Part shown: positions 696-26,742 of the stretch, one piece after another
Position numbering within the stretch: position 1 is the stretch's first letter
Layout of the letters: the number at the start of each line of letters is the position of its first letter
NCBI GenBank assembly: GCA_946186665.1
Contig: CAMHOE010000014.1
Location: forward strand, 1-52,575
Reading direction: 5' to 3'
Length of the DNA stretch: 52,575 bases
Source: an uncultured Clostridia bacterium
GTDB lineage: Bacteria > Bacillota > Clostridia > Oscillospirales > Acutalibacteraceae
Notes under the pieces: model-generated
The model's database searches: none
The model's input: the letters and a program-made list of their open reading frames with translations, nothing else
Told to the model about the DNA's origin: nothing
Translations under genes and position numbers: made by a program

Positions 696-697
696 GC

Positions 698-1750: not shown

Positions 1751-1755
1751 GGTTA

Positions 1756-3967: not shown

Positions 3968-3973
3968 ATATTA

Positions 3974-6595: not shown

Positions 6596-6744
6596 TTTCA
6601 TCCTCTTCATCTTTTTTGTCAGTGTCATATTTTATCATCTTATTATTTTCACGTTTGTTTCAAATCTGTATTATAATCTGTTCCAAACTCTTTGTTGGTA
6701 TTGAATATATTGTATTATCTTTGCATTATTTTTTTATCTATTTC

Positions 6745-6784: not shown

Positions 6785-7289
6785 AATAACAAAAACTGAT
6801 GTGCATTTTATTGTACACTGTACGCTGCTTTTTTATAATATGTTCCCAAGAAGGTTATTTTCAAATCGGTTGAAGGACCAGAGTCATATTCATAAGAAAG
6901 TGCTTTGCCCACATGTATTGATGAGAACTTTGTTGAAAATGACATTTCCTCATAATCCGACCAATAAAACGCACTCATATGACCGCAGCATTCCAGCCAT
7001 ATATCCCCAGGAAATTATCAAGCGTTTGCAGCGTTGAAGTCATGGAAATATCAGCATAAAGCCAATATTCCTTCTCGTATGGTGCTTCAATTTTAAGCAG
7101 CATACATTCCTGCTTATCCGAAGCTATTCTTTTGTGCAGCTTTTTGTTTTCATATACGCCCTGGTATTATAAATATAAAATACAAATATTATAAACACGA
7201 ACAATATCATTTTCAGTAACAAGCAAGTGATCCCTTACAATACACTTATCTGCGATCTTGATATTGTTGACTATATCTTGTTTTGTCAT
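6785..7289 (-). pseudogene. Chimeric gene remnant of conserved unknown families
   Basis: Reading on the minus strand from 7289, a start M-T-K-Q-D-I-V-N-N-I gives about 40 residues similar to the N-terminus of the gene at 13961-14464, then stops. From about 7168 a second open stretch (with E-Y-W-L-Y-A-D-I-S and L-D-N-F-L) continues in another frame after a one-base deletion near 7005. It then reads D-I-W-L-E-C-C-G-H-M-S-A-F and, further on, L-S-Y-E-Y-D. These last motifs belong to a widespread bacterial and archaeal protein family of unknown function. I recall it as related to pRiA4b ORF-3-like or SEC-C-linked proteins, but that name is uncertain. The reading ends near 6790. At least one frameshift and one stop break the gene, so no full product is expected. 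Confidence 0.6.
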
Positions 7290-7312
7290 AATTACCATTT
7301 GCTATAAAAATC

Positions 7313-7342
7313 AAGCCACTCACCGTCTCTGATGAATGGCTT
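7313..7342 (-). terminator. Rho-independent terminator of the DUF4097 operon
   Basis: A 12-bp stem (AAGCCATTCATC paired with GGTGAGTGGCTT, two G-U pairs) with a six-base loop is followed on the minus strand by GATTTTTAT. It lies 58 bp after the DUF4097 stop. Closely related hairpins occur at 14488-14517 and 26187-26215. Confidence 0.7.
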
Positions 7343-13960: not shown

Positions 13961-14464
13961 TTATAATTTTTCGGAAACGGAGACAAGTGCATTAAGTAAC
14001 TCCGAAGGTATTTCAGGATCGTTCAAACAAAAATCACCGATAATATTACCTTTATCATACAATCTTACACTTGCTGAAATGCCATCAATAATCGTCATCT
14101 CTCGCGTTTTGACAACTATATCTTCTTTTACACTGCGAATAATCTCCTCTATAATTTGAGTGTCAGTTTTCATACACTTACAAATAACATCGCCTCTATA
14201 TGCAGTTTGTTGATCAGCAATTTCAACAGTAGTAAAGTACTGAGAATAACTTGTGTTTCCTAAAAAATCGGTATAACGCGTATATGCACAGTGAGCATAG
14301 TAACCGCTTTGTTTCATAAATACCTGAATGAAATAAGTGTTAAGGCGGAATGGCGGCAAAAAAAGACACTCTATAATGAGATCATCTTCCGGAATAAGCA
14401 GATGATATTTTGAAAGATATTTTTTTGCAATTTCTATGTTATTCAGCATTTCTTGTTTTGTCAT
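13961..14464 (-). CDS. Hypothetical protein, 167 residues
   Basis: I do not recognise the family. The product is soluble and has no signal peptide. It contains Cys at C-A-Y-T and C-K-C-M and a basic middle, and is predicted alpha/beta. Its first 36 residues (starting M-T-K-Q-E-M-L-N-N-I) resemble the start of the broken gene at 6785-7289, and the hairpin upstream of both genes is also shared. It abuts the att-like segment at 14524-14647, so it may be the first gene of an older element inserted at rpsI. A weak Shine-Dalgarno (AAGAGG) precedes the ATG. Confidence 0.6.
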   Translation of the reverse strand: MTKQEMLNNIEIAKKYLSKYHLLIPEDDLIIECLFLPPFRLNTYFIQVFMKQSGYYAHCAYTRYTDFLGNTSYSQYFTTVEIADQQTAYRGDVICKCMKTDTQIIEEIIRSVKEDIVVKTREMTIIDGISASVRLYDKGNIIGDFCLNDPEIPSELLNALVSVSEKL

Positions 14465-14487
14465 ACTTACCTCTTTTTATGCAAATC

Positions 14488-14517
14488 AAGCCACTCATCG
14501 TCTCCGATGAATGGCTT
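14488..14517. terminator. Hairpin related to the element-end terminator
   Basis: AAGCCACTCATCG and CGATGAATGGCTT form a 13-bp stem with one mismatch on the plus strand (G-U on the minus strand). The T run on the minus strand is short (GATTTG). The same arrangement, hairpin then TGTTAGTTAC-like repeats then rpsI-end sequence, occurs at 26187-26355. Confidence 0.5.
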
Positions 14518-14523
14518 GAAATT

Positions 14524-14544
14524 TGTTAGTTATGTGATAATTAC
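14524..14544. repeat. Degenerate TGTTAGTTAC pair left of the left att copy
   Basis: TGTTAGTTAT and TGATAATTAC start exactly 11 bp apart, as do the perfect copies at 26221-26252. This looks like the arm-site array of an older, decayed element end. Confidence 0.45.
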
Positions 14545-14579
14545 CGTCTGAGATTCACCGTATTTCAAGCAAACCCCAA

Positions 14580-14647
14580 ACGATAAGAACCGCATAAACA
14601 CTGTATTTTTGATAACCGCCGAAAGGCTCTGATTATCTCTTTGAGAA
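14580..14647. repeat. Left att copy (rpsI 3'-end duplication)
   Basis: This 68-bp stretch matches 26288-26355 with about five mismatches and includes 32 identical bases (14590-14621 and 26298-26329). On the minus strand its end still reads F-S-K-R-stop, the last codons of rpsI, with one synonymous change (TCA for TCG). It is the distal attachment site produced by integration at rpsI. Confidence 0.82.
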
Positions 14648-14695
14648 TTTTTAGATATGTAAAAGCCGCTATTTTACTGTACTTTTCTTCTGACT

Positions 14696-14716
14696 TGTTA
14701 GTTACTTGTTAGTTAC
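14696..14716. repeat. Left-end TGTTAGTTAC direct repeats
   Basis: Two perfect copies of TGTTAGTTAC lie at 14696-14705 and 14707-14716, one helical turn (11 bp) apart. The same 10-mer occurs three times at the right end in the same orientation. They are candidate integrase arm-binding sites. Confidence 0.65.
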
Positions 14717-14764
14717 TGTGAGCATTTCAGAATTACTGACAATAATGAATGATAAAAATTATTA

Positions 14765-15304
14765 TTATACTTTTAACCAATACTGTACCAACAGGAAAAG
14801 GAATGTCCCGATATTCGTCATACAGCCAAGCCAGAACAGAAAACCTTTCAGCTTCGTAAAGGTAAACATTTTCTTTCTGTCTTGTTCCAGATCGTATTCA
14901 AGTTTATTCAGCTCCATTATGTATGAGGTCGATTTACTTGCCAATTCTTCTGTAAGTCCTGTGGCTGTTTTATTGAATGATTCTAATTCTTGTGTAACGG
15001 CAGTAGAATATCTTTGACGAAATTCTTGTATTAACTTATCGCCTTCTCTTTGGAGGGCTTTGCTTAACTGTTCGTTCAGGCTCTGTTGGTGTTGGATTAT
15101 TGCTTGCAGCCGTTCTATTTCCTCCGTCTGATGTTGGATAAAGTCCGTTTGTTCCCGCTGCTGAATGTTCCATTTCTCCGTATAGTCTGCCAACGCCTCT
15201 TTGAGCAGGCTGTTTTCCAATTCCTGTCGGCTCATCTGGTTCAACTGCTTGAGCTGCTGCCTTGCCGGAGCTTGCTGTCCGGTTTCCATGTTGACTAAGC
15301 TCAA
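14765..15304 (-). CDS. Coiled-coil membrane protein overlapping the relaxase gene
   Basis: The protein has 179 residues. It is Gln/Glu-rich, with long predicted coiled coil (about 15-145) and one membrane segment at the C-terminus (about 155-175; F-L-F-W-L-G-C-M-T-N). The start is a TTG at 15304, preceded by a perfect AAAGGAGG box 8 bp upstream that lies inside the relaxase gene. The two genes share 269 bp in different frames. Such overlapping accessory genes downstream of MOBP relaxases (MobB-like) are known to stabilise relaxosomes or link them to the membrane. That role is inferred from position and topology, since I do not recognise the family by sequence. Confidence 0.75.
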   Translation of the reverse strand: MSLVNMETGQQAPARQQLKQLNQMSRQELENSLLKEALADYTEKWNIQQREQTDFIQHQTEEIERLQAIIQHQQSLNEQLSKALQREGDKLIQEFRQRYSTAVTQELESFNKTATGLTEELASKSTSYIMELNKLEYDLEQDRKKMFTFTKLKGFLFWLGCMTNIGTFLFLLVQYWLKV

Positions 15305-16031
15305 ATACTATCGCCTCCTTTGTGTAGCTTGCTCCAAGCTTATCTCCTCTTATAGCCTTTTGCTTTGCCGGATGCTTGAAGCTGATCGTTTTTGCTGTAT
15401 TTCTTGCCAAAGTAACACCATACTTATTCAGGTGTTTTTCAAATTCTTCCATTGTACTGCATCTCGTCAGGGCTTCTGCAATAACTTCTCGCAACTCCTC
15501 TTTCCATGATGTACCGCCGTTCAGAGTGATACGCTTTTCCTCTGTGCTTATTTTATCTTCTGCCGGTTTTCTGAAATCAAGCGTGGAATATCCGTATTTT
15601 TCGGCTATTTCATTTGACAGGTCTTTCAAAGCTCCGTACTCGCTGTTATTCAGGTGCAGCATTTTTCCTGTGACGAACGATACACTATTTACAATGATAT
15701 GACAATGGATATGTGTTCTGTCCGTGTGCGTTGCTATTATATATTCGTGATCTCCAAAGGCTTTCTGTGCCAATTCTTCTGTGAGCCTTGTTGCTTCTTC
15801 GGGTGTTATATTATCTTTTGGATCAAAGCTATGCTTGAAATGATAATACTTTCGGCTGCTGAACGACTTTCCTTTATGGAACAGCGAACAGGTTTCTTTG
15901 AATTGTGTGGCATAATCCCTTGTATCGTCAAGGGCGTGAGAAACGATAATAGCAGCTTTTTTCGGATCGGTGACATACTTGATAGCCTTTGCAGGCTTGG
16001 CTTTACAGCCCTGTCCTTTGAATAGTGGCAT
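15036..16031 (-). CDS. mobA: MOBP-type relaxase (MobA/MobL-like mobilization nuclease)
   Basis: The 331-residue protein nicks oriT and leads the strand into the recipient cell. Motif I is A-I-K-Y-V-T-D-P-K-K, with Tyr19 the likely nucleophile. Motif III is the three-His metal site H-I-H-C-H at about 107-111, followed by I-I-V-N-S. The relaxase domain fills about 1-235. The last 90 residues are Pro/Thr/Arg-rich, appear disordered and overlap the next gene in another frame. An AGGAG box precedes the ATG, and the gene begins one base after the mobC stop. It is shorter than many MobA proteins because it lacks any primase or helicase extension. Confidence 0.92.
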   Translation of the reverse strand: MPLFKGQGCKAKPAKAIKYVTDPKKAAIIVSHALDDTRDYATQFKETCSLFHKGKSFSSRKYYHFKHSFDPKDNITPEEATRLTEELAQKAFGDHEYIIATHTDRTHIHCHIIVNSVSFVTGKMLHLNNSEYGALKDLSNEIAEKYGYSTLDFRKPAEDKISTEEKRITLNGGTSWKEELREVIAEALTRCSTMEEFEKHLNKYGVTLARNTAKTISFKHPAKQKAIRGDKLGASYTKEAIVFELSQHGNRTASSGKAAAQAVEPDEPTGIGKQPAQRGVGRLYGEMEHSAAGTNGLYPTSDGGNRTAASNNPTPTEPERTVKQSPPKRRR

Positions 16032-16032
16032 T

Positions 16033-16368
16033 TCAATCTCCTGAGATCAAATCTGTTATTTTATCTGTCATACTATATACCCTTTGATAACACGCTCTGC
16101 AATCTTGCAGGGCATTATTTATTTCCTGCTGTGTTACAGACGAATATTCGTTGATACGGTGAGTAAGCTGATTAAGATTTGTACCCTGTCGTTTCAGTTC
16201 AGCAAGCAAGGGAATATATGCTTTTATTATTCTTATCTGCTGTCCGTTGATAGCTTTAATGAGGAATTCTGTAAGTGTCAGATCACTGTGTGAAAGCTTG
16301 TATTGCAATCTTTCATATTCCTCATCTGAGAGTCTGACGGACACATTGTGTGAGCGTTTACGCTTCAT
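16033..16368 (-). CDS. mobC: MobC-family relaxosome accessory protein
   Basis: I place the start at the ATG at 16368 because AAAGGAG lies 7 bp upstream. This removes a low-complexity upstream extension and gives 111 residues. The N-terminal part is a ribbon-helix-helix-like DNA-binding region (N-V-S-V-R-L-S-D-E-E-Y-E-R-L). It is followed by the MobC signature (L-L-A-E-L-K-R-Q-G-T-N-L-N-Q-L-T) at about 54-69. MobC binds oriT and helps the relaxase open the strands. It is followed immediately by the relaxase gene and preceded by an inverted-repeat-rich region likely to be oriT. Confidence 0.92.
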   Translation of the reverse strand: MKRKRSHNVSVRLSDEEYERLQYKLSHSDLTLTEFLIKAINGQQIRIIKAYIPLLAELKRQGTNLNQLTHRINEYSSVTQQEINNALQDCRACYQRVYSMTDKITDLISGD

Positions 16369-16410
16369 AGTCGGACTCCTTTCAAGGGGGCTTGGGGGTG
16401 AAACCACCAA

Positions 16411-16537
16411 CGAGGTAGTAAATGGCTTGCCATTTGCGTACCTCGCTATAACCAAAAGTCAGACCTTTCCTGTGGCAAGCCATTTTTATCTTACCGTCAG
16501 AAAAGAATGAATATTGTATTGTTTGTCTGACTTTTGG
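16411..16537. other. Candidate oriT: nested inverted repeats upstream of mobC
   Basis: CGAGGTA (16411-16417) pairs with TACCTCG (16439-16445), with an inner pair AAATGG/CCATTT (16420-16425 and 16430-16435). Next to it a perfect 13-bp inverted repeat, CCAAAAGTCAGAC (16452-16464) and GTCTGACTTTTGG (16525-16537), encloses a 60-bp AT-rich segment. Position directly upstream of mobC-mobA and this architecture fit an origin of transfer. The repeats could also serve mobC autoregulation. No nic site is proven. Confidence 0.55.
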
Positions 16538-16649
16538 AAAGCGAAGCTTTTTTCTCTGTTGGTAGTCAAGGTTGCAACATTGTATGTATAATGATTTTCT
16601 GCAATATTGCAAGATTGCACATTTTTCTATTACAGACAATGTTGCAATG

Positions 16650-17618
16650 TTACTCTTTGGACAATTTCCAATACCATTCATTATTACTTCTGAACGATTT
16701 CACCCCTACATTTTTCTTTGCTTCATTAAGAGTTCGTTCGGAGATGTTCCGTATCTTTGCTTGCTGCTGCAACTGTTTTTGCTTTATTGCACTACCGTCT
16801 GACAACATATCTCGGAGAAGTTTTTCAGCCTGTTCAAGTTTTGAGGTTGTGGCTACTCCGTTGAGCAGGTCATCAATAGAAATATCATACTTACCGATGA
16901 AACGAAAACCCGTTTCCTTATTGAGTTCAAATGCAATCGGCTCTCCCTCTGGTGCCAGACTGCTCTTTATCTGTGCCATTACTCTTATAGTAGGATTGTC
17001 CTTTATCCTGCCTACAAGCAATACACTTCTTGCCGATGCAGGAATATCGATAGAGCCTAATCCCCTGTAAGAAGATTTCATTCCGATTGCTTTATTCAGA
17101 TGTCCTATCAAAACTACTGCACACTGCTGTCTCTGTGCAACTTCAGCTAAATGTTTCATAACCGGTCTTATTTCATTGGCTCTGTGCATATCAACATTTG
17201 CACCGATATATGCCTGCAAGGGATCAAGTATGACCAACTTGGCTTTGGTTTCAATGATCGCCTGCTCCAATCTTTCATCTGTCAAGGAAAGCTCTATCTT
17301 ACTCTCATCTATTACTGTGATCTTATCATCATCAGCATTTGCTGCTATTAGTCGTGGTTTAACCGTATCAGAAAGACCATCTTCGGCAGTCTGGTAGATA
17401 ATGTTGATAGGTTCGGATTTTTCATTGCTTTCAGGTAGCTTTTCTCCCTTTGAAAGCAGAGCAGCAAGATTGAGTATCAAAGTAGTCTTTCCTTCGCCCG
17501 GATCACCCTGAATAATGGTCACCTTACCATACGGTATGTAAGGGTACCAAAGCCACTCAACTTTTGTTGGTTCAACATCCGACATTTTGATAAGTCGTAA
17601 CTCTGTATTCTTATCCAT
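16650..17618 (-). CDS. RepA-like AAA ATPase/helicase
   Basis: The start at 17618 is chosen because AGGTGA lies 6 bp upstream, giving 322 residues. It is a RecA-fold hexameric ATPase of the RepA/DnaB-like group: Walker A G-D-P-G-E-G-K-T-T at about 38-46, Walker B L-V-I-L-D-P-L near 135, and an L-I-G-H-L-N-K motif near 175. The C-terminal 70 residues look like a winged-helix tail (N-I-S-E-R-T-L-N-E-A-K-K). Such ATPases are common in Firmicutes mobile elements and probably support replication of the excised circle. It overlaps the small HTH gene by 8 bp. Confidence 0.88.
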   Translation of the reverse strand: MDKNTELRLIKMSDVEPTKVEWLWYPYIPYGKVTIIQGDPGEGKTTLILNLAALLSKGEKLPESNEKSEPINIIYQTAEDGLSDTVKPRLIAANADDDKITVIDESKIELSLTDERLEQAIIETKAKLVILDPLQAYIGANVDMHRANEIRPVMKHLAEVAQRQQCAVVLIGHLNKAIGMKSSYRGLGSIDIPASARSVLLVGRIKDNPTIRVMAQIKSSLAPEGEPIAFELNKETGFRFIGKYDISIDDLLNGVATTSKLEQAEKLLRDMLSDGSAIKQKQLQQQAKIRNISERTLNEAKKNVGVKSFRSNNEWYWKLSKE

Positions 17619-17850
17619 TTTCATCACCTGCCTCATCTTTGAAGTAACCTAACTGTTCCCAAACCTGTTTATCGGGGCAGTAGTAGTTGTACTCGTGAGA
17701 ATTGTCCTTGCGGAACGCATAGCCGAATTTCAGAATACCCTTCTGAAGTCCTATTCTGATAAACTGCGGATCTTTGCCTGATGCCTTTGCTATCTCACCG
17801 ATAGTGACATTTCTGCCTGTAAAGTGGGGTATGTGGTTTTTTAAGCTCAT
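17611..17850 (-). CDS. Small helix-turn-helix protein, excisionase-like
   Basis: The 79-residue protein contains a MerR/Xis-like HTH: V-T-I-G-E-I-A-K-A-S-G-K-D-P-Q-F-I-R-I-G-L at about 15-35. A Tyr-rich wing (H-E-Y-N-Y-Y-C-P) follows. Proteins of this kind in mobile elements act as excisionases or as DNA-binding partners of the adjacent RepA-like ATPase, with which it is translationally coupled. An AAGGAGG box precedes the ATG. It is the first gene of a leftward operon (HTH, ATPase) diverging from the integrase operon. Confidence 0.75.
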   Translation of the reverse strand: MSLKNHIPHFTGRNVTIGEIAKASGKDPQFIRIGLQKGILKFGYAFRKDNSHEYNYYCPDKQVWEQLGYFKDEAGDENG

Positions 17851-17961
17851 ATTATTACCTCCTTCGTTTTTAAGAGCTGACTATATTTTACATTCATCCC
17901 TTGCATAACAGAACAGATAATCGTTGTAACAAAAAAATTAACAGAAATGATCTGAAATCGC

Positions 17962-17990
17962 TTGACAGCAACTCAACGGCATGATATAAT
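17962..17990 (+). promoter_or_regulatory. Perfect consensus sigma-A promoter of the integrase operon
   Basis: TTGACA and TATAAT are separated by exactly 17 bp. The -35 box supplies an in-frame TTG that could be mistaken for a start codon; transcription should begin near 17997, downstream of it. Confidence 0.85.
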
Positions 17991-17994
17991 TCAA

Positions 17995-18034
17995 TATAAC
18001 GATAGTATAAGATATCGTTACGAATATCGTTATA
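17995..18034. promoter_or_regulatory. Operator-like TATCGTTA repeats at the transcription start
   Basis: TATAACGATA (17995-18004) and TATCGTTATA (18025-18034) form a perfect 10-bp inverted repeat. A third half-site, TATCGTTA (18013-18020), lies between them. Placement over the predicted +1 suggests repression of the integrase operon by an unidentified binder. Confidence 0.6.
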
Positions 18035-18048
18035 GAAAGAGTGATGTT

Positions 18049-19074
18049 ATGAGTGACCTGTTTTTTACGGTCGATGTTTTCAAAAAGGAGATCAGCATTT
18101 TTAGGTTTTCTTCACTGACTGTTCATCATGAGAAAACTCTTGCCTCTAAGTTTACATTTGATGACATGATCTATATGTCAGAAGACTATGTTAAAGGCGA
18201 ATATCAGCAAAAAATGCAGGAAATATGTAATCTGATGCTTAAGTATGTAGGTATAGAGAAATCAAAAAATGAAAAGATCATGGATATGAAAGCTCGGCTT
18301 GAATCGGAGTTTGGCGGAAATGTTTTGGCGATCATCTGTCTTTCTATCCTGTTCAGAACATATCAGGCTCAAAGGGATCATTTAGTACATCTTGACATTT
18401 TCAAATCTTTCAAGGATGGTCTTACTAATAAGATCACTTTGGAATCTAAAAGTAAAATTGAAAACAAATTCAAAGAGCTTACTAAAGCAATGGAAACGCT
18501 TATAAAATGTTCTGAAAATACTTTTCAGCAGATCCCCGAAAGTACATTTATATCAGACAATGGATATATCTTTGAATGTAACAAGCGTCAGGTCAGTCTG
18601 CTGTATTCACTTAATGAATCTATTGATCCTCTTATCCACATTTTTATAGCAAATCTATTTATCGGCAATCTTAAAGTATTTACTTGTAAAAGTTGCCGTA
18701 AGAGATATTTCAGTAATGCGGATGTCGGATATTGTCCCGCTATAAAGTGTCAGGAAGTCAAGGACAAGGAGTTACGCAAAAAGAATCGCATGAACAGAAA
18801 AAAGAATGAATATACGAATTTGTCGGATACCTTCAGCAACTATACTCGTCAGCTTAAATACAAACTGACACTAATAGGTGTTCCGGAAGATGTCATAGCT
18901 GTGTACGATGCTGAAAAAAGCTCTTGCTTATACAATGTCAAAATGCAGATCTCCACTTATCAGGACTGCGAAAGACCAATTGACGATGATTTGATCAGAT
19001 ATATAGAAGAGCAGAAAGGACATATTAAAGCACTTTACGATAGCCTGTCAAAGCAGAAAGGAACAGAGCAATGA
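18049..19074 (+). CDS. DUF6076-like Zn-finger protein of the element
   Basis: The ATG at 18049 is taken as the start because the longer frame begins inside the promoter. The product has 341 residues. It is mostly helical, with a four-Cys zinc finger near residues 215-235 (F-T-C-K-S-C-R-K-R-Y-F, then Y-C-P-A-I-K-C) and a very basic stretch after it. The layout resembles DUF6076 proteins, which are common next to integrases in Firmicutes elements. The function is not known. It overlaps the integrase start by 4 bp, so the two are coupled. A second, decayed copy of this family lies at 50843-51280. Confidence 0.75.
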   Translation: MSDLFFTVDVFKKEISIFRFSSLTVHHEKTLASKFTFDDMIYMSEDYVKGEYQQKMQEICNLMLKYVGIEKSKNEKIMDMKARLESEFGGNVLAIICLSILFRTYQAQRDHLVHLDIFKSFKDGLTNKITLESKSKIENKFKELTKAMETLIKCSENTFQQIPESTFISDNGYIFECNKRQVSLLYSLNESIDPLIHIFIANLFIGNLKVFTCKSCRKRYFSNADVGYCPAIKCQEVKDKELRKKNRMNRKKNEYTNLSDTFSNYTRQLKYKLTLIGVPEDVIAVYDAEKSSCLYNVKMQISTYQDCERPIDDDLIRYIEEQKGHIKALYDSLSKQKGTEQ

Positions 19075-20120
19075 AAAAAGCTAACGGCATGGGCAGCTAT
19101 TATAAGCTGTACGGAAACCGTAGAAAACCTTTTATCGTTCGTAAAACGATAGGCTGGGATATTGATCCTGTTACCGGCAGAAGAAAACAGCTATTTCTGA
19201 CTATTGGCTATGCAGCAACACAGAAGGAAGCACAGAAAATGCTTGATTCATATAATGAAAATCCTTATAATATCGAGGCTTCAAAAATAACCTTTGCTGA
19301 GGTTTATGAGAAATGGTCCAAAGATAAATACCCAACCATATCAGATTCAAATATCAAGGCTTATAATGCTTCATACAAATGCTGTGAGCCTTTGTATGAC
19401 AGGATATTCAAGGATATAAAGCTGATGGATCTGCAAAGAGTAGTCGATACCTGCGGCAAAAACTATCCGACGCTTCGCAAGCTCAAAGTACTTTTTAATC
19501 AGCTTTACGAATATGCAATGAAGTATGAGCTTTGCAACAAGGATTATTCTCAGTATGTGGATATTGCCAAGCATAAGGACAAAAATCCGAACAAGACAGA
19601 CCGCTCACCATTCAGCAAGGAAGAAATTTCTTCTCTGTGGGTACAGAAAAACAACCGATATGTGCAAGTCGTTCTGATGCTGATATACAGTGGTGTGAGG
19701 ATTTCTGAACTGCTTGAACTGAAATGCGAAAATGTCAATTTAGAGGAGCATTGCTTTGATGTCATCAAAAGCAAGACCGAAAACGGCATACGCAAAGTAC
19801 CGATTGCGGATAAGGTATATGATTTCTGGGTAAAATGGTATAACGAAAAAAGTGAATTCCTTGTCCATGCTGATGATGGAAAGAAATTCACTTATAACAA
19901 TTATTGCGATTCCTATTGGGATCCTGTAATGGAGCTGATAGATGCGGCACACAAACCGCACGACACCCGACACACCTGTATTTCAATGATGACAGAGAAA
20001 GGTGTGTCTCCGACGCTGATAAAGAAGATCGTTGGTCATTCCGGTGCAATGTCGCTGACGGAGAGAGTATATACTCATGTGAATGTGCAGGAGCTGCTTG
20101 ATGCCATAAACAAAATATAG
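19071..20120 (+). CDS. int: Tyrosine-type site-specific integrase
   Basis: The 349-residue recombinase has an N-terminal arm-binding domain (about 5-50), a core-binding SAM-like domain (about 70-170) and a catalytic domain. The catalytic residues are all visible: Arg210 (G-V-R-I-S-E-L), Lys235, His297 and Arg300 (H-D-T-R-H-T), His323 (V-G-H-S-G) and the nucleophile Tyr334 (R-V-Y-T-H-V). It should integrate and excise the element at the rpsI end. It is coupled to the DUF6076-like gene. The TGTTAGTTAC repeats at both element ends are likely its arm sites. Confidence 0.95.
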   Translation: MKKANGMGSYYKLYGNRRKPFIVRKTIGWDIDPVTGRRKQLFLTIGYAATQKEAQKMLDSYNENPYNIEASKITFAEVYEKWSKDKYPTISDSNIKAYNASYKCCEPLYDRIFKDIKLMDLQRVVDTCGKNYPTLRKLKVLFNQLYEYAMKYELCNKDYSQYVDIAKHKDKNPNKTDRSPFSKEEISSLWVQKNNRYVQVVLMLIYSGVRISELLELKCENVNLEEHCFDVIKSKTENGIRKVPIADKVYDFWVKWYNEKSEFLVHADDGKKFTYNNYCDSYWDPVMELIDAAHKPHDTRHTCISMMTEKGVSPTLIKKIVGHSGAMSLTERVYTHVNVQELLDAINKI

Positions 20121-20153
20121 ACGGTTAATCGGCTGTGCCTTCGGGTGCAGCCG

Positions 20154-20708
20154 TTACTTTTTTAATTCATACTTACTTGATAGTCCACGGTTATATGAAG
20201 GAAGTTTCTTTTTGTAAACAGCTTGATAAAGGTTATTTACAGTATCAAGTACTGAATTAAGCGCATTTTCAACTTGTTTTTCCGTAACAATTATTGGCTC
20301 CTTAGGATGAACTAATTTATTTCGTATATCTATACTTTGCTTTAGAGTAATAAACCATGTATCTGATTGTGAGATTTCTTGTTTTTGGATGATATAATAA
20401 AGCAACTCAATTCGATCTGTTAGGCGAGACATTTTTAATTTGTTTGACAAATAAAACTGACCTTTTTCAAACTTTATTTCTTTTTCTAATAAAATTGATC
20501 GCTCCATTATTCCATACTTATTATTGTAGGGCTCAACAAGTATTTCAGATATTATTGAATTTACACATGATTCCAAATAGCTTAATGATAGTAAGAGACT
20601 TGCATGAAGATATGTGTTCTTAGTAAACAAATCATCACTGCCCTTAGCTTTTTCAAAAAGAGCTTTTGATTCTTCCATTAAAGAATCTACAAATTCATCA
20701 AAATCCAT
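20154..20708 (-). CDS. HEPN-domain protein, putative RNase
   Basis: The 184-residue all-helical protein has the HEPN ribonuclease signature R-N-K-L-V-H at about 129-134 (R-x4-H), followed by P-K-E-P. The N-terminal helices (about 30-60) contain Y-L-E-S-C-V-N, typical of the HEPN dimer interface. HEPN proteins often act as abortive-infection or toxin RNases. It starts one base after the stop of the GGQHR gene, so the two form a tight pair at the end of the restriction-modification operon. The specific family is not recognised; RNase activity is inferred from the motif. Confidence 0.72.
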   Translation of the reverse strand: MDFDEFVDSLMEESKALFEKAKGSDDLFTKNTYLHASLLLSLSYLESCVNSIISEILVEPYNNKYGIMERSILLEKEIKFEKGQFYLSNKLKMSRLTDRIELLYYIIQKQEISQSDTWFITLKQSIDIRNKLVHPKEPIIVTEKQVENALNSVLDTVNNLYQAVYKKKLPSYNRGLSSKYELKK

Positions 20709-20709
20709 T

Positions 20710-21951
20710 TTATACCTTATTTGCTGCCTCCTCAGCTTCTAAAACTGCTTGTTTAGCATAATACTTTGCTATTGCTGCGTTTACTAGTTCCTTAGTGATT
20801 CCAGATCCTTTTTCAGCCTGAAAATAAAACAGTTCTGCTAAACGACCTCTCTCTTTAACATCTGTCCTTGTACCCAATCCTCTGTAGTTATCAGGATCTG
20901 TTTTGTGGCGAGCTTTAGCAAGAACTTTAGCATTTAAGGGATCTGTTTTTTGAATATTGCTTAGTTCAAAATGTTTTTCTAAACGCACTTTATTGCTTTG
21001 TAAGCAACCAGATACATAAGACCAGGCTGCAAGAACAGCAAGACTCATAGCCTTATCCGCAAAATCACTGTTTCGACTTTTCTCTCCAGAAGAATAAAAT
21101 AATCGTTGTTGTTTGACTAATTTTGCAAATTCCATTCCTGCTGTAATAAGTGGTTTATCTTCCCACATTTCGGAATGTGCGATTTTTAGTTGTTCCCATT
21201 CTTCGTCTACTCCGCCAGTCTTTGCCAAAACCGGCATTGTTCTTTCTTTTGAAAAAGAGTCACAATTTATCTTGATACCTTGATAGTAATTCATAATGAA
21301 TGTACGAGCTGCACGAACCGTTATTTTGCCATTACGTTGCTTCCGATCTGCAAAATCTTCATGATCGTTTAATAAGCCTACTTTCTGACACCATTCTCTT
21401 AACTGAGGACCTTTTACCGTTTCTAACATTCTGTCCAATAAATCAGAAGAAACAGCAATGTTGGTGTTTGAAATCAATTGAACATCCAATCTTTGCTCAA
21501 TATTCAAACCAAAATACACCTTTAATCCGTGATATTGATTAACACCAATTTCTATTGCTTCTGATATCGCCACATACCGATGCTGACCTCCTATGATTTT
21601 TAACGGATGCTCTTCATCAAAGGAAGTGTTGTATTCTGCGACAATGTTGCTGAACGATCGATTTTGTTTAGCATCTTCTTTCATTTGTAAAAAAGCAACA
21701 CTATCCTCAACAACATCTCTATTTGCCCGATAATCAGCTTGGTTTTCTGCATCAAGAGGACTATCAATAGTTCCGTTTTTAATTATCTTATCAGCATATA
21801 TATGGCATTCACAATAAATAGACGATGTTTTATTGTCTTTAAAAATATAAAGCGTATCTTCTATTGGCTGAAACAGTTTACAGAAATCTAAAATCATCTC
21901 ATTTAATTGAACTGAAAGTTTTTCCTCGGGATTAATATTTTTTATTTCCAT
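20710..21951 (-). CDS. GGQHR-motif protein (DndB/ParB-like fold)
   Basis: The 413-residue protein has I-I-G-G-Q-H-R-Y-V-A-I at about 119-129. This is the variant of the DGQHR motif of DndB-like proteins, which share the ParB/Srx fold. A following S-N-T-N-I-A-V-S-S-D segment fits the same fold. The C-terminal half is helical and ends in an Ala/Glu-rich helix. DndB regulates phosphorothioate modification operons, but no dndACDE genes are present here. It is therefore likely a regulator or effector paired with the HEPN protein. It lies 72 bp downstream of vsr. Confidence 0.7.
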   Translation of the reverse strand: MEIKNINPEEKLSVQLNEMILDFCKLFQPIEDTLYIFKDNKTSSIYCECHIYADKIIKNGTIDSPLDAENQADYRANRDVVEDSVAFLQMKEDAKQNRSFSNIVAEYNTSFDEEHPLKIIGGQHRYVAISEAIEIGVNQYHGLKVYFGLNIEQRLDVQLISNTNIAVSSDLLDRMLETVKGPQLREWCQKVGLLNDHEDFADRKQRNGKITVRAARTFIMNYYQGIKINCDSFSKERTMPVLAKTGGVDEEWEQLKIAHSEMWEDKPLITAGMEFAKLVKQQRLFYSSGEKSRNSDFADKAMSLAVLAAWSYVSGCLQSNKVRLEKHFELSNIQKTDPLNAKVLAKARHKTDPDNYRGLGTRTDVKERGRLAELFYFQAEKGSGITKELVNAAIAKYYAKQAVLEAEEAANKV

Positions 21952-22023
21952 GATTTTCCCCCCTTGTTTTGTTTACTACAATTAAGAGCAAAAACTGCGT
22001 ATTTCACCTTCAAGTGCTTCCAA

Positions 22024-22404
22024 TCATTCAGATATTGTTTTATTTCTTAACTGACATTCCCATACAGCAATAACATTCCAACCTTCCATCTTAAGCTGAT
22101 TTATCTGTTTTTGATCTCTTTCGATGTTATGATTGATTTTGTTAATCCAGAATTTGGTGTTGGTTTTGGGAACAACAAAATACTTACAACCACCATGTCC
22201 GTGCCAAAAACATCCATTTACAAAAATAATAGTTCTATATTTAGGTAATACAATATCAGGTTTTCCAGGATACCTTTTATCATTTTTTCGATAGCGAAAC
22301 CCTTTTGAGAATAAGTATTTGCGTACTATCTCCTCGGGCCTTGTATCATTGCTCCTGATTCGGGACATATTGTAGCTTCTGATTTCTTTTGAATGAACAT
22401 CCAT
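22024..22404 (-). CDS. vsr: Very short patch repair endonuclease Vsr
   Basis: The 126-residue protein contains the Vsr signature N-M-S-R-I-R-S-N-D-T-R-P-E (about 12-24), the G-K-P-D-I-V-L-P active-site segment with the metal-binding Asp near 49, and F-V-N-G-C-F-W-H-G-H (about 61-70). It nicks at T:G mismatches that arise when 5-methylcytosine deaminates, protecting the methylated sites. Genes for Vsr are usual next to cytosine-5 methyltransferases. Length is normal. Confidence 0.95.
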   Translation of the reverse strand: MDVHSKEIRSYNMSRIRSNDTRPEEIVRKYLFSKGFRYRKNDKRYPGKPDIVLPKYRTIIFVNGCFWHGHGGCKYFVVPKTNTKFWINKINHNIERDQKQINQLKMEGWNVIAVWECQLRNKTISE

Positions 22405-22430
22405 TTTTATATGTTAGCAGACAGTATTTA

Positions 22431-22847
22431 TTAACTAAAGTCAAAATAATAAATACCATTATTATGACTTACATCTATATAGTTTCGTCCATAATTAGAA
22501 AGATCTTGCATATCAATCTGTTTGTTGGGTGATACACCTATACGCTGACGTATATAATGGCCAATTATTGATTTATCATTATATGAAGAAAGCTGTTTAG
22601 GATATACGATTCCTCCAATTTTCTGAGTTCCTTCCAATAAACATTGCATTTGAGTCCCATCATCCCAAATTACATTAATAATTGAACCTTGAGTTGGGAA
22701 AAAATTGGGGTTATTCCTAAAAAATGAAGTAGTTAATGCTATATATGCATCTTCACAATTTACATGTGCATCAGCCAATCCCCAGTTTAAACCGGCTTGT
22801 GCCTGAACACTGCCATCCCTGACACTATATAATTCTAACTTAGGCAT
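22431..22847 (-). CDS. Standalone NgoFVII-type DNA-recognition domain
   Basis: The 138-residue protein matches the C-terminal part of NgoFVII-type restriction endonucleases as I recall it: G-L-N-W-G near 19-23, E-D-A-Y-I-A near 32, F-F-P near 48, W-D-D-G-T, then S-I-I-G-H-Y-I-R-Q-R-I-G near 92-104 and D-L-S-N-Y-G-R near 115, closing with F-D-F-S. In those enzymes this B3-like domain follows a phospholipase-D nuclease domain, which is absent here. It may supply DNA recognition for the HNH nuclease encoded three genes upstream. The upstream methyltransferase stop is only 12 bp away. Confidence 0.62.
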   Translation of the reverse strand: MPKLELYSVRDGSVQAQAGLNWGLADAHVNCEDAYIALTTSFFRNNPNFFPTQGSIINVIWDDGTQMQCLLEGTQKIGGIVYPKQLSSYNDKSIIGHYIRQRIGVSPNKQIDMQDLSNYGRNYIDVSHNNGIYYFDFS

Positions 22848-22859
22848 ATATTCTTCTCC

Positions 22860-24086
22860 TTACATAAAAATATAATCATAAATACTATCTGCCAATAACT
22901 TGGCAAATAATGGTGGAACAGCGTTACCTATCATTTTATAGTCAAGAGCTGTACCTGTGATAAATTCATAGTCATCAGGAAATGTCTGCAAACGGGCAGC
23001 TTCTCTGACGGTTATAGTTCTGAGCTGCTTTGAATCAGGGTGAATATGTCTTAAACCATCTTTATAAAGATGTGCAGGAATTGTATTACTGGGTTCGTCC
23101 CATCTTATTACATGGTATTTATGTATATTAGATGTTTTCCCCGTGATTTTAGTGTATAACTGCTTCAAAGCATCCGTAGAGACATATTCATTTCTGCCTG
23201 ATTCTATATCCTCAGTAAGTAGCTTGAAGATATCAATGTCTCTTTTACTGCTAAAACGTGGTAAATGATTAAGGATAGTAAAACTATCATCAGGGAAAGA
23301 ATGGGAATAAGTTTTACTGCCAATTTTTTTTGGATTATCAAGAGGATACAGAGCCGGAAGATCTGAAATAGCTTCCCTGACGGTACGTGGCTTCTCTACT
23401 TTCTTGGAAGGTAATACTTCTTTATAAAATTTGTCCAATAACTGCTCAGGGTTTTCAAAACATTCTTTTCTGAGAGCGAGAATTATTATTCTGCTTCTGT
23501 TCTGAGGAACCCCATATTCTGTAAAATCAATGATAGCCCGTGAAAGATCATCAAGGACTACATAACCTGTTTTACGAAACTTTTCTTTGATAATATCAAT
23601 TATTAATCGTTCTCCATCACCAGGTCTTGCACTCAGAATACCAGGAACATTTTCAAAAACGAAAGCTTTTGGTTTATAGTGATTAACGATTTCTAAATAA
23701 TTTTCAAAAAGGTAGTTACGATAATCATTTTTCATTCCGTCTTTATCTCTTATTCTACCAGCAACAGAGTATGCCTGACATGGCGGACCACCAATTATCA
23801 GATCAACGGTTCCGCCATATTCTTTTACAAGTACATCAAGTCCTTCAGATATGCCATAAACCGGATCGTTCCACCCATTTATAAGTTCTTGAGTTCGCTG
23901 AATGTCAAACTGTACTACACGTTTATCTGCATCTGCATATTCCCATTTTTTCTTTAGATTATGCCTGAGAGTATCGCAAGGTGCCTTATCCCATTCAATA
24001 CATGCGATGGTATTATAGTGTCCTGACTGCTTGAATCCTTCGGTAAGACCGCCACACCCTGCAAAAAGATCAATCGTATTAACCAT
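22860..24086 (-). CDS. DNA cytosine-5 methyltransferase (second of pair)
   Basis: I start at the ATG at 24086 (AGGAGG six bases upstream), giving 408 residues that begin with motif I (I-D-L-F-A-G-C-G-G at about 5-13). Motif IV is G-G-P-P-C-Q with catalytic Cys103, motif VI is E-N-V-P, motif VIII is Q-N-R-S-R, and motifs IX-X end with M-I-G-N-A-V-P-P. All are intact. The target-recognition region (about 225-330) differs from that of the neighbouring methyltransferase, so the two probably modify different strands of an asymmetric site, or different sites. It overlaps the first methyltransferase gene by 8 bp. Confidence 0.95.
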   Translation of the reverse strand: MVNTIDLFAGCGGLTEGFKQSGHYNTIACIEWDKAPCDTLRHNLKKKWEYADADKRVVQFDIQRTQELINGWNDPVYGISEGLDVLVKEYGGTVDLIIGGPPCQAYSVAGRIRDKDGMKNDYRNYLFENYLEIVNHYKPKAFVFENVPGILSARPGDGERLIIDIIKEKFRKTGYVVLDDLSRAIIDFTEYGVPQNRSRIIILALRKECFENPEQLLDKFYKEVLPSKKVEKPRTVREAISDLPALYPLDNPKKIGSKTYSHSFPDDSFTILNHLPRFSSKRDIDIFKLLTEDIESGRNEYVSTDALKQLYTKITGKTSNIHKYHVIRWDEPSNTIPAHLYKDGLRHIHPDSKQLRTITVREAARLQTFPDDYEFITGTALDYKMIGNAVPPLFAKLLADSIYDYIFM

Positions 24087-25152
24087 CGCCATCCTCCTTT
24101 GTGATAATAGATTTAACAGCACATCCTAAATGATAACCTAACAATGGAGGTACCGCATTGCCAACCTGACGGTATTGTTGTGTCCTTGTTCCTGTAAAAA
24201 CAAAATCATCAGGGAATGACTGTAAACGAGCATTTTCCCTTACAGTCGGTACTCTGTTATATTCATAATGAAAATGATTTCTGTGACCAGTATCAATAGT
24301 TCTTGAAGGCTTATTGCCATCATATCTTGTCCACGCTTCGTGAAATTTGCGACTTTCACCTACACCCTGTGGCAAATCCTTATAATTTCCACCTTCAGGA
24401 ACAAGTGCGATAGTATCTTTAACCATTTGGGTATGATTTGTTGCTGTATGATTATAAAGAACCTCACATTTACCACGCATTAGCCGCTGATATTCTGTTT
24501 TGGGCTCACAAGAATACACGCTTTCTTCCTTTCCTAATGTATCAATTAATCCAGGCAAATCACTTAGCGCGTCCCTGCAGGTTCGATAGTTTTCAGGAGT
24601 AAATTCAGGTTGAGGAAAACAAGGTTCTCCCAGATCATTACGAATACCCATAAATATTAGCCTTTTTCTCATTTGAGGAACACCATAATCCGCTGCTATC
24701 AAAATTTTGCATTCCACATTATATCCAAGAGCTTTGAATCGTCTTAATATTTCATTTTTAATTTCACCATTATAAAGTGTAGCCATTCCCGGAACATTTT
24801 CAATAATAAACGCTTTTGGATTATATTGCTTTACAACCTCAAATACTGCCAAATACAATTTGTTTCTCGCATCATCAAAATTTCTTGGTCCAGTAAGAGA
24901 GAAACCCTGACAAGGTGGTCCTGCAATGATAACATCTATCTGACGATCTCCTGCAATTTTTTTTATTGTGTCAAATGTTTCCTGCTTTGACAGGTCTGCA
25001 TTAAGTGCAACAGCTCCATTATGATTAAGCTTAAATGTATTAAGAGCAGCAGCATCGTTATCTACTCCTACAATAACATCAAATCCTGCATCCATAAAGC
25101 CCTTAGACAAGCCTCCACAGCCCGCAAACAAATCAATAGCATACATTTGCAA
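24079..25152 (-). CDS. DNA cytosine-5 methyltransferase (first of pair)
   Basis: The 357-residue enzyme shows motif I (I-D-L-F-A-G-C-G-G-L at about 6-15), motif IV G-P-P-C-Q-G-F-S with Cys81, motif VI E-N-V-P-G near 119, motif VIII Q-M-R-K-R near 160 and motif X Q-V-G-N-A-V-P-P near 335. It methylates cytosine C5 to protect the element's sequence from its own nuclease. Its target-recognition region is about residues 190-290. It starts 7 bp after the HNH gene stop and overlaps the second methyltransferase, in a single leftward operon. Confidence 0.96.
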   Translation of the reverse strand: MQMYAIDLFAGCGGLSKGFMDAGFDVIVGVDNDAAALNTFKLNHNGAVALNADLSKQETFDTIKKIAGDRQIDVIIAGPPCQGFSLTGPRNFDDARNKLYLAVFEVVKQYNPKAFIIENVPGMATLYNGEIKNEILRRFKALGYNVECKILIAADYGVPQMRKRLIFMGIRNDLGEPCFPQPEFTPENYRTCRDALSDLPGLIDTLGKEESVYSCEPKTEYQRLMRGKCEVLYNHTATNHTQMVKDTIALVPEGGNYKDLPQGVGESRKFHEAWTRYDGNKPSRTIDTGHRNHFHYEYNRVPTVRENARLQSFPDDFVFTGTRTQQYRQVGNAVPPLLGYHLGCAVKSIITKEDGDG

Positions 25153-25159
25153 TAACTCC

Positions 25160-26140
25160 TTATAATCTTCCTGTTGTCAAAAACAATCCATAAACATTTT
25201 CTCTATGATACTTTACATTTTCAATATCAGGTGCAAAAAATGCATTGTTTGGAATTCTTATTCTCTTACCGTTAAATAAATTCAGATATTCACTTGTTAT
25301 TCGAGGGTGAACAACAACCTTTAAGTCATCATCAAGAGTAAAAAATCCTTTATCAAAAGCCCAGTGAAGATCTCTGCACAAAGCTAATCCGTTATTTGGC
25401 ATAAACAATCCACCATGACTTTTGGGTTTAATATGTGCTGCTTCCAGATTCATATATGATTCAAACCTTATTACTGTACCGGTAACAGCACACAGATTAT
25501 CATATCCGACCATAATAAAATCTCTGAATGATACAGCATTGAAAAGCGCAGCAATATTCTCTGTTGATGTTGCAATTTTGCTGGTAACTGTTTCATCAAT
25601 AGCAACTTCACAATCATCTGGCTTTGCAATCCGTCTGACTTTCTCTTCAAATTCAGGAATAATCCCTTCAAAAATGCCATAACCACCATTTATCGGATAG
25701 TCATTAATAAAAGAATTCCACTTGTCATAAAAATCCGAACCGTTGTTTATTATGTGATCCAAATAATAAACGGTTTGAATTTCGCCATCTTCTGTAATAT
25801 CTTCAGTTCTAATTATTATAATATCATTCTCAGAAAACAATAATATCTGTTCTTCCAACTCTTTGTTAAGATAAAGACGATATTCATTTCTTGGATGAGC
25901 AGCAGTAGAACCATGGAATTTATCATTATGATATACAAAGTTACAGTAAACTTTTTTACCTGAGTACAATGGAATGACAGGCAATATAGCAGAGTCATTC
26001 AACTGGGTTTCTGACAAAGGAGGAAACATTGCCAATACTTCTTTATTCATAGAAGTAAGAAGATACCTTCCTCTCTGTGGTTTACCGTCTCTTACACTTC
26101 CCAACTCCTGAAATCCACATTTTTTAAGATAGTACTTCAT
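25160..26140 (-). CDS. HNH restriction endonuclease
   Basis: The start at 26140 follows GGGAG with an 8-bp spacing; the longer frame has no ribosome site. The 326-residue protein carries an HNH nuclease domain at about 225-275: C-A-V-T-G, then L-E-A-A-H-I-K-P near 241, P-N-N-G-L-A-L-C near 256, and H-W-A-F-D-K-G-F-F near 267. These match HNH restriction enzymes paired with cytosine-5 methyltransferases. The N-terminal 200 residues have no domain I can name. As the first gene of the cargo operon it is the most likely restriction subunit. Confidence 0.88.
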   Translation of the reverse strand: MKYYLKKCGFQELGSVRDGKPQRGRYLLTSMNKEVLAMFPPLSETQLNDSAILPVIPLYSGKKVYCNFVYHNDKFHGSTAAHPRNEYRLYLNKELEEQILLFSENDIIIIRTEDITEDGEIQTVYYLDHIINNGSDFYDKWNSFINDYPINGGYGIFEGIIPEFEEKVRRIAKPDDCEVAIDETVTSKIATSTENIAALFNAVSFRDFIMVGYDNLCAVTGTVIRFESYMNLEAAHIKPKSHGGLFMPNNGLALCRDLHWAFDKGFFTLDDDLKVVVHPRITSEYLNLFNGKRIRIPNNAFFAPDIENVKYHRENVYGLFLTTGRL

Positions 26141-26186
26141 ATAATCAGCTCCCTTCAAATAATATTACAATTAAATCTTGAAAAAT

Positions 26187-26215
26187 AAGGCATCCATCAA
26201 ACTGATGAATGCCTT
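26187..26215 (-). terminator. Terminator at the right end of the element, after rpsI
   Basis: AAGGCATTCATCA and TGATGGATGCCTT form a 13-bp stem, followed on the minus strand by ATTTTTC. It should stop rplM-rpsI transcripts before the cargo operon, although it belongs to the element side of the junction. Related hairpins lie at 14488-14517 and 7313-7342. Confidence 0.7.
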
Positions 26216-26220
26216 AAATT

Positions 26221-26252
26221 TGTTAGTTACCTGTTAGTTACGTGTTAGTTAC
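26221..26252. repeat. Right-end TGTTAGTTAC direct repeats
   Basis: Three perfect copies of TGTTAGTTAC start at 26221, 26232 and 26243, exactly 11 bp apart and in the same orientation as the left-end pair. They are candidate integrase arm-binding sites. Confidence 0.7.
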
Positions 26253-26287
26253 CGTCCTGAAACCACCGCATTCCAGTGAAATCCAGA

Positions 26288-26355
26288 ACGATAAAACCCG
26301 CATAAACACTGTATTTTTGATAACCGCCGTAAGGCTGTGATTATCTCTTCGAGAA
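26288..26355. repeat. Right att copy overlapping the rpsI 3' end
   Basis: This is the partner of 14580-14647. The part from 26341 on is coding (the last codons of rpsI, Q-F-S-K-R-stop) and the rest is non-coding element sequence. The identical core spans 26298-26329, and the match ends within the gene at about 26355. Confidence 0.82.
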
Positions 26356-26742
26356 CTGCGGAGCACGGCGAGCTGCCTTGAGTCCGTACTTCTTTCTTTC
26401 CTTCATACGAGGATCACGAGTGAGGAAGCCAGCTTTCTTAAGGCGAGGACGAAGGTTCTCGCTGTCATACTGAAGAAGCGCACGGGAAATACCGTGACGG
26501 ATAGCACCTGCCTGACCGGTAACACCGCCGCCTGCAACTCTGCAAACAACGTCAAACTGAGCTTCGGTGCCTGTAAGAGCAAGAGGCTGACGAACGATGA
26601 GCTTGAGAGTTTCAAGACCAAAGTAATCATCGATATCTCTGTCGTTGATCGTAACCTTGCCTGTTCCCTTGTAGAGTCTTACTCTTGCAACAGAGCTTTT
26701 TCTTCTGCCTGTGCCGTAAAAATATGGTGTCTTATCGTACAT
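26341..26742 (-). CDS. rpsI: 30S ribosomal protein S9
   Basis: The 133-residue protein has the full S9 pattern: [13 protein letters not shown], then [26 protein letters not shown] and the C-terminal tail S-K-R that reaches the decoding centre. It is cotranscribed with rplM 18 bp upstream. Its last codons form the attachment site of the mobile element; integration leaves the reading frame and tail intact. Ribosome site GGAGG is visible. Confidence 0.99.

Follow-up and report, generated by a model that had tools for sequence, protein, structure and literature searches.

A probable integrative and mobilizable element at the 3' end of rpsI in a Ruminococcus-type bacterium, with a cargo slot of predicted defence genes and a probable relic of an earlier insertion

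What has been inserted at the 3' end of the ribosomal protein gene rpsI in contig CAMHOE010000014.1 of an uncultured Clostridia bacterium, and how did it get there? The window, by which we mean the whole 52,575-nucleotide stretch analysed, carries two 68-bp copies of one sequence, at 14580-14647 and 26288-26355, the latter entering the rpsI stop codon. The approximately 11.7 kb between them encode an integrase, a relaxase and mobilization genes, followed by 6 kb of cargo. Our answer, in which we place high though not complete confidence, is a joint one: the region would be an integrative and mobilizable element (IME) at the 3' end of rpsI in a Ruminococcus-type host, with an exchangeable cargo slot, lying beside the relic of an earlier insertion. 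An earlier note made from the letters of this DNA had proposed a mobilizable-type element at this site, and the ends that we found, together with an integrase family that sits mostly at rpsI, bear it out. The note had missed the identity of the cargo, its position in an exchangeable slot and the 124-bp length of the full repeat.

Comparisons were made with a genus group of 64 genomes (own genome included; one genome per species, mostly fragmented), with samples of 398 family and 394 order genomes, and with named genomes, which on scanning yielded 560 pattern matches and 510 integrase relatives; counts for named relatives rest on the best 80 of these 510. G numbers denote genomes and L numbers loci.

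Results

Gene content of the element

The genes of the element other than its cargo, and the target gene, are as follows.

14765-15304, minus strand: 179-aa open reading frame (ORF) in another frame, overlapping the relaxase 3' end; 29% homologue in L153
15036-16031, minus strand: relaxase, PF03432 (E = 5e-33; 69% to L153)
16033-16455, minus strand: NikA/MobC-like accessory protein (family matches NikA-like and MobC)
16650-17636, minus strand: AAA_25 ATPase by family match, labelled RepA-like in the earlier note and here
17611-17850, minus strand: 79-aa protein with a homologue near the integrase in 69 of the 80 named relatives
17962-19074, plus strand: 370-aa protein with no assigned function, directly before the integrase
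19071-20120, plus strand: tyrosine integrase (phage integrase family; E = 2.5e-19, full length)
26341-26742, minus strand: rpsI (S9), the target gene (family match)

Family matches upheld the earlier calls of integrase, relaxase, MobC and RepA-like ATPase. Integrase residues R210, K235, H297, R300, H323 and Y334, which we take to be catalytic, are invariant in all five aligned sequences, the window among them, and the PF03432 relaxase is, going by the family name, presumably of MOBP type. The mobilization module is matched in L153 at 46-69% identity. The region thus has its own apparently intact integrase and its own relaxase and mobilization genes, as well as defined ends and empty sites in other species. 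No conjugation machinery of its own was found: coupling-protein and secretion families had 0 matches in a family scan of element ORFs of about 79 aa or more, as the note had said of secretion genes.

Could the island have been mobile once and now be fixed, retained for its restriction-modification (R-M) type genes? Close genus relatives have decayed: the integrase of G042 is split across two frames and nothing remains there of the stretch that begins with the RepA-like gene, and the integrase matches of G024 and G036 lack the first 115 and the first 166 residues. In G055, scraps of mobC and integrase adjoin counterparts of the two cargo methyltransferases described below, MT1 (86%) and MT2 (90%), and of the HNH gene, which is cut off by the end of the contig after 17 residues. 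We nevertheless consider a dead island unlikely, given a full-length integrase with the expected residues, a relaxase nuclease domain match spanning 131 of 132 positions and the presence of both cores.

Ends and attachment core

Comparison with relatives placed the ends and the attachment (att) core as follows.

14633-14647, plus strand: distal att core TTATCTCTTTGAGAA, with the element interior next to it
14695-14716, plus strand: two TTGTTAGTTAC arm-like repeats inside the element left end
26187-26355, plus strand: element right end, with a terminator-like hairpin, three arm repeats (26220-26252), the 68 bp, and the core at 26341-26355 over the rpsI stop

The two 68-bp copies lie exactly where the note had put them and differ, by eye count, at 5 of 68 positions. 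An 18-mer from within them matched the window at these two copies only (up to 3 mismatches), and two matches occurred in none of 100 shuffles. The F-S-K-R-stop ending that the note had read in the far copy is encoded on the minus strand by both, and the unusual serine codon (TTCGAG) belongs to the rpsI-proximal copy; among 32 rpsI ends we counted TTTGAG in 22, TTCGAG in 3 (window, G030, G036), TTGGAG in 2 and TTGCTG in 5. The full homology is longer, 124 bp at 82% (14524-14647 vs 26232-26355), and extends into the TTGTTAGTTAC arm-like repeats, of which the window has 6 matches (up to 1 mismatch) where 0.76 are expected; 6 were reached in 0 of 100 shuffles.

The note had taken the 68-bp copies for the att repeat of the present insertion, and this part does not stand. 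Other elements at rpsI have at most about 15-16 bp in common between their ends (TTATCTCTTYGAGAA): the two-ended relatives L175 (Pseudobutyrivibrio ruminis CF1b) and L182 (Butyrivibrio proteoclasticus P6B7) have TTATCTCTTTGAGAA and a few bases, and other inserts at rpsI in G030 and G044 have 16 bp. The 68 bp are therefore probably not the recombination repeat of this insertion, and from the comparison we place the crossover within 14633-14647 and 26341-26355, in a core no longer than about 15 bp; the reaction itself is inferred. Within the window the core occurs only at 14633 and 26341, apart from a site at 28344, in a coding gene, that matches with 1 mismatch.

TTGTTAGTTAC-type arm repeats precede rpsI at the right end in 14 of the 15 loci that have an integrase at least 70% identical and rpsI in view (window, L144-L154, L157 and L159, with variant copies in L151 and L157), and in this clade a terminator-like hairpin mostly precedes the arms (by eye). 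The element left end, from TTGAGAATTTTTAG onward, stands alone in G010 (91.5% over 106 bp); this solo end is at about 12065 (flipped) of L137, and the rpsI that lies 3.6 kb away differs in the sequence of its last codons. In L154, tandem att cores, the second with one mismatch, precede rpsI at 4366-4401, and the slot is empty.

A probable relic of an earlier insertion

If the core is short, the remainder of the left copy calls for another origin. It lies outside the element, and the parts on that side are the following.

14381-14517, minus strand: start of a 167-aa gene (13961-14464) and a terminator-like hairpin, probable relic cargo
14524-14647, plus strand: probable relic right end, with degenerate arm repeats, the 68-bp copy and the core

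The order of hairpin, degenerate arms and 68 bp, and the resemblance of the 124-bp homology to a family right end with TTGTTAGTTAC arms, make the left copy beyond the core best read as a relic, the right end of a family member that had inserted earlier. The 167-aa gene also lies beside the site in G012, G041 and G033 (79-82%). A degraded second copy of its start and hairpin, 74% to 14381-14517, is found at 7206-7342 of the window.

Comparable probable remnants occur elsewhere in the genus. At least one arm-like repeat (up to 2 mismatches) lies 98-121 bp before the stop in 11 of 32 rpsI ends, window included. G020 is counted on a single repeat with one mismatch; G002, G008, G023, G058, G059 and G061, with a single weak match elsewhere or just outside 98-121 bp, are not. 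The family integrase is present at the armed ends of the window and G042, and integrase scraps at those of G041 and G046; the other 7 have no family integrase in the available flank (176 bp in G051 to 12.8 kb in G009).

Alternatively, no earlier element existed: attB would be the native rpsI end with its 3' region, and attP would mimic all 68 bp. The seven armed ends, where the 68 bp and arms follow rpsI with no intact family element in view, fit this, as does the fact that sites in other species are not clearly nearer the left copy, and the streptococcal rpsI integrases Tyr_4 and Tyr_5 are reported with long repeats (PMC5357655). We regard it as quite improbable. The repeat extends into the arm motifs, which are also found beside related integrases with no rpsI in reach, exact TTAGTTAC standing behind the integrase in 2 of 14 such loci (L108, L117). 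Two-ended relatives have the short core alone in common, the rpsI ends of G034 and G010 have ordinary-looking terminators with no 68-bp repeat (by eye), and the integrase scraps of G041 and G046 lie beside the repeat.

Two further arguments about the left side were tried. Sequence similarity as proof that the left copy is native and the right copy the element's did not give a clear-cut result. The left flank is not a cis-mobilizable element (CIME; attL and attR with no integrase), as no second core lies to its left within 2 mismatches.

Empty sites and target choice

The note had suggested a search for related genomes with no insert, and such sites exist in three other species. When the left flank of the window is joined through the far core to rpsI, a sequence of 412 bases results, with the junction at base 267/268. 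The joined flanks align across it to G012 (bases 1-412, 87%) and to G041 (bases 1-385, 82%). The alignment to G033 (1-296, 87%) reaches only 29 bases past the junction, where the contig ends; that assembly contains a further rpsI junction and 8% contamination.

Among the 80 named relatives, 66 have rpsI downstream and convergent with the integrase, 159-3981 bp away, and in 5 (L156, L158, L162, L191, L194) the sequence ends within 1.2 kb of the integrase. In the family sample the integrase was matched in 21 of 398 genomes at 1e-40, and among 20 family and genus loci rpsI adjoins the integrases of G398, G307 and G211 (about 60%) and of G371, G177 and G060 (below 50%). The remaining 14 have no rpsI within the retrieved stretch, several of them with integrases below 50% in other genera. 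The expectation that relatives would share the target thus held for the 66, and did not extend to the nine named relatives discussed below or to several of these more distant integrases. A search of viral contigs with the integrase returned no relative.

An exchangeable cargo slot

Between the integrase and the right end lies the slot.

20153-26186, no strand: cargo slot; the window is homologous to G024 (L162) up to 20152, just past the hairpin behind the integrase, and again from 26187

With L144, homology breaks off at 20120 and starts again at 26208; the two integrases are 93% identical (residues 38-349) and the cargo is unrelated. Conversely, L144, L149 and L153 have ThsB-like proteins that share 88-91% identity and PDC-M50A partners that share 77-88%, with integrases at 71-73%. 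These breakpoints, and the mismatch between cargo and integrase relatedness, show the space to behave as an exchangeable cargo slot in the closest integrase clade. L148 and L171 have the opposite pattern (integrases 87%, cargo 50-62%), so the age of the association between cargo and integrase appears to vary. The integrase-rpsI gap is longer than 600 bp in 12 of the 14 loci with integrases of at least 70% identity and rpsI in reach (exceptions L154 and L157), vs 1 of 52 (L223) at 60-64%.

It might be supposed that the cargo consists of chance insertions next to rpsI that are no part of the element, since other inserts at rpsI exist (G030, G044) and the cargo of G055 adjoins mere element scraps. 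With cargo lying between integrase and family right end in 14 of the 15 loci showing both, and with matching breakpoints across genomes, we hold this to be very improbable indeed.

A slot was scored as filled when an ORF of at least 90 aa followed the integrase, which gave 17 (window, L144-L153, L155, L156, L159, L162, L171 and G036); L154 and L157 (empty) and L158 (cut) are omitted, the G036 contig ends inside its slot, the L155 slot is bounded by a 2-mismatch core only, and that of L156 comprises roughly 540 bp, ending at the arms. For L150 and L156 the scan was of Pfam alone, and the PADLOC scans covered neither the L146 methyltransferase nor the G036 gene. Eleven of the 17 have strong matches to defence-type genes, 2 weak and 4 none, so that in the clade with integrases of at least 70% the slot appears to hold mostly predicted defence-type genes. 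As a control, 4 of 10 backbone or flanking proteins had PADLOC matches, all via helix-turn-helix or ATPase parts, with a best E of 2.5e-11. Slot contents outside the window are as follows.

L144, L149, L153: ThsB and PDC-M50A
L145: D12 methyltransferase and HNH
L146: 5-methylcytosine (m5C) methyltransferase; its 291-aa gene had no match
L151: D12 and N6/N4 methyltransferases and an ICEA-family gene; its 427-aa gene had no match
L152: RloB/AbiLii and AbiLi
L159: dCTPase (dCTP deaminase), E = 7.8e-124
L162: PDC-S14, E = 3e-107
G036: Eco57I/TaqI_C methylase
L148, L171: AAA ATPases with HEC-02A matches, scored weak; the L171 locus is, in addition, without the usual right end
L147, L150, L155, L156: no defence match

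The 360-aa slot protein of L147 (9102-10184) had 0 matches in Pfam, PADLOC and NCBIfam. On the far side of the L149 integrase, 751-3981 holds an AlwI-type endonuclease gene, two TIR-like ORFs and a 135-aa PDC-M50A-like ORF (ORFs by eye).

Cargo in the window

The slot of the window itself holds seven genes.

20154-20708, minus strand: HEPN protein with R-x4-H (family match)
20710-21951, minus strand: 413-aa protein with a GGQHR motif, paired with the HEPN gene
22024-22404, minus strand: Vsr-type endonuclease (family match)
22431-22847, minus strand: NgoFVII-type C-terminal DNA-binding domain only
22860-24122, minus strand: m5C methyltransferase 1 (MT1; family match)
24079-25152, minus strand: m5C methyltransferase 2 (MT2; family match)
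25160-26158, minus strand: HNH endonuclease, C-terminal part TagI-like (E = 2.7e-6)

The two m5C methyltransferases and the HNH gene are predicted from sequence to be R-M-type cargo, the NgoFVII-like gene amounting to the C-terminal domain alone. The HEPN and GGQHR genes had no PADLOC match, and the latter no Pfam match either. Placing this pair in the R-M cluster was considered and rejected: the pair occurs elsewhere in G309 and in a viral contig, and G055 has MT1-MT2-HNH directly behind its integrase scrap and no pair, so HEPN and GGQHR look like a separate two-gene unit. In G309 (L235) the genes are adjacent and in the same order (61% and 75%), with another tyrosine integrase nearby (by eye); in the viral contig locus L238 they are at 34% and 54%. 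The R-x4-H motif is kept in all three (by eye). The GGQHR protein is rare, being found in 2 of 398 family genomes (1e-15) and 1 of 394 order genomes (1e-8), own genome counted in each.

A PDB sequence search with the GGQHR protein gave nothing usable (best E 0.057), an AlphaFold model from a two-row alignment (mean predicted local distance difference test, pLDDT, 37) was not used, a plasmid collection search gave 0 matches, and none of the papers listed in our literature search combined DGQHR and HEPN, although one with both would have ranked first. Outside the element, Type I-E CRISPR-Cas genes (cas3, cse1, cse2, cas7, cas5) lie at 51-6628, at the contig end.

Discussion

In the mechanism that we propose, the tyrosine integrase would recombine a circular form with the last rpsI codons inside the short core, and the C-terminus of S9 would be preserved. 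Nicking of the circle would fall to the relaxase and MobC-like protein, and transfer would proceed via a co-resident conjugative element. The element would have entered next to what an earlier family member had left of its right end, displacing this relic to its far side; given the homology and similar relics in other species, this would account for the long imperfect repeat. The cargo, if defensive, may favour both host and element. Excision, the circle, transfer and defence are predictions for this element.

Several observations weigh against this reading. rpsI was located in only 41 of the 64 genus genomes, the empty sites come from other species and none from the same one, and no second complete close relative (integrase above 80%) was found in the genus. 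Sites in other species are not consistently nearer the supposedly native left copy: in a 180-bp comparison G012 is even (0.85 and 0.86), G009 (0.89 vs 0.77) and G006 are nearer the right copy, and G029 is nearer the left. Core ends vary, with TTGCTG in G041, G060, L151 and L159 where most have TTTGAG, which suggests that a conserved right half of the core is not an absolute requirement and that the true overlap may sit nearer the TTATCTCTT part. The right end of L171, one of 15, lacks arms. Nine of the 80 relatives have 4.9-8 kb of flank and no rpsI; all nine carry rpsI elsewhere in the genome, and in six (L169, L179, L201, L204, L205, L219) a second tyrosine recombinase gene adjoins the integrase (by eye) and could belong to a stacked element. 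As to the slots, which were drawn from the best 80 integrase hits and are not a random sample, 4 of 17 have no defence match and 2 match via common ATPase domains only. Several of the strong matches are methyltransferases, which can protect the element itself, and a lone methyltransferase need not be a defence gene.

We put forward a wider proposal tentatively, rating it a little short of even: Ruminococcus-type rpsI elements would act as a defence shuttle, one slot swapping whole anti-phage systems between species; HEPN/GGQHR would be an undescribed mobile pair; and the rpsI 3' end would have been rewritten repeatedly, the target in many species being a fossil of earlier insertions. A fixed slot marked by a recognizable integrase end offers a simple place to search for anti-phage genes, from the integrase to the TTGTTAGTTAC arms before rpsI, and the matchless slots (L147, L155, L156) and the HEPN/GGQHR pair are candidates for new ones. 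The locus also advises caution, as the long imperfect repeat of an island may turn out to be a stacked relic instead of the recombination core.

Phage satellites such as P2/P4 have defence hotspots, in which a fixed position carries exchangeable defence genes. These are another type of element, whereas the slot in the window belongs to a mobilizable element and is bounded by its integrase and att end.

Streptococcal rpsI elements have integrases of families Tyr_4/5/7, tandem accretion and decayed members (PMC5357655). They resemble ours in target gene, tyrosine integrase and stacking on resident att sites, and differ in host group and in that we attribute the long repeat of the window to a relic; neither "cargo" nor "restriction" appears as a word in the main text of that paper. 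IMESag-rpsI of Streptococcus agalactiae (PMC5090054) is likewise a mobilizable element in rpsI, and forms circles, but has a MOBV1 relaxase; compared by description and not by sequence, the window element, with its PF03432 relaxase, is not of this type. In S. salivarius, CIMEs and microCIMEs lie beside elements at rpsI and other genes, and R-M genes are frequent cargo (PMC7563491). The leftover att-bearing stretches in tandem structures and the R-M cargo are alike, whereas the window relic has no second core within the limit given above. S. suis rpsI IMEs carry orphan methylases (PMC12479173). ICE_RhoA2-183_rpsI of Roseburia hominis (PMC12904643), set beside the window by description only, is also a gut Firmicute element in rpsI, but is named a putative integrative and conjugative element (ICE). 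Among the papers listed in our searches we recognized none on rpsI elements of Ruminococcus that carry a defence slot, nor did we find a fossil target for this group. The target gene, tandem insertion and cargo of this kind are thus known from streptococci; what is newer here is the exchangeable slot and the fossil target.

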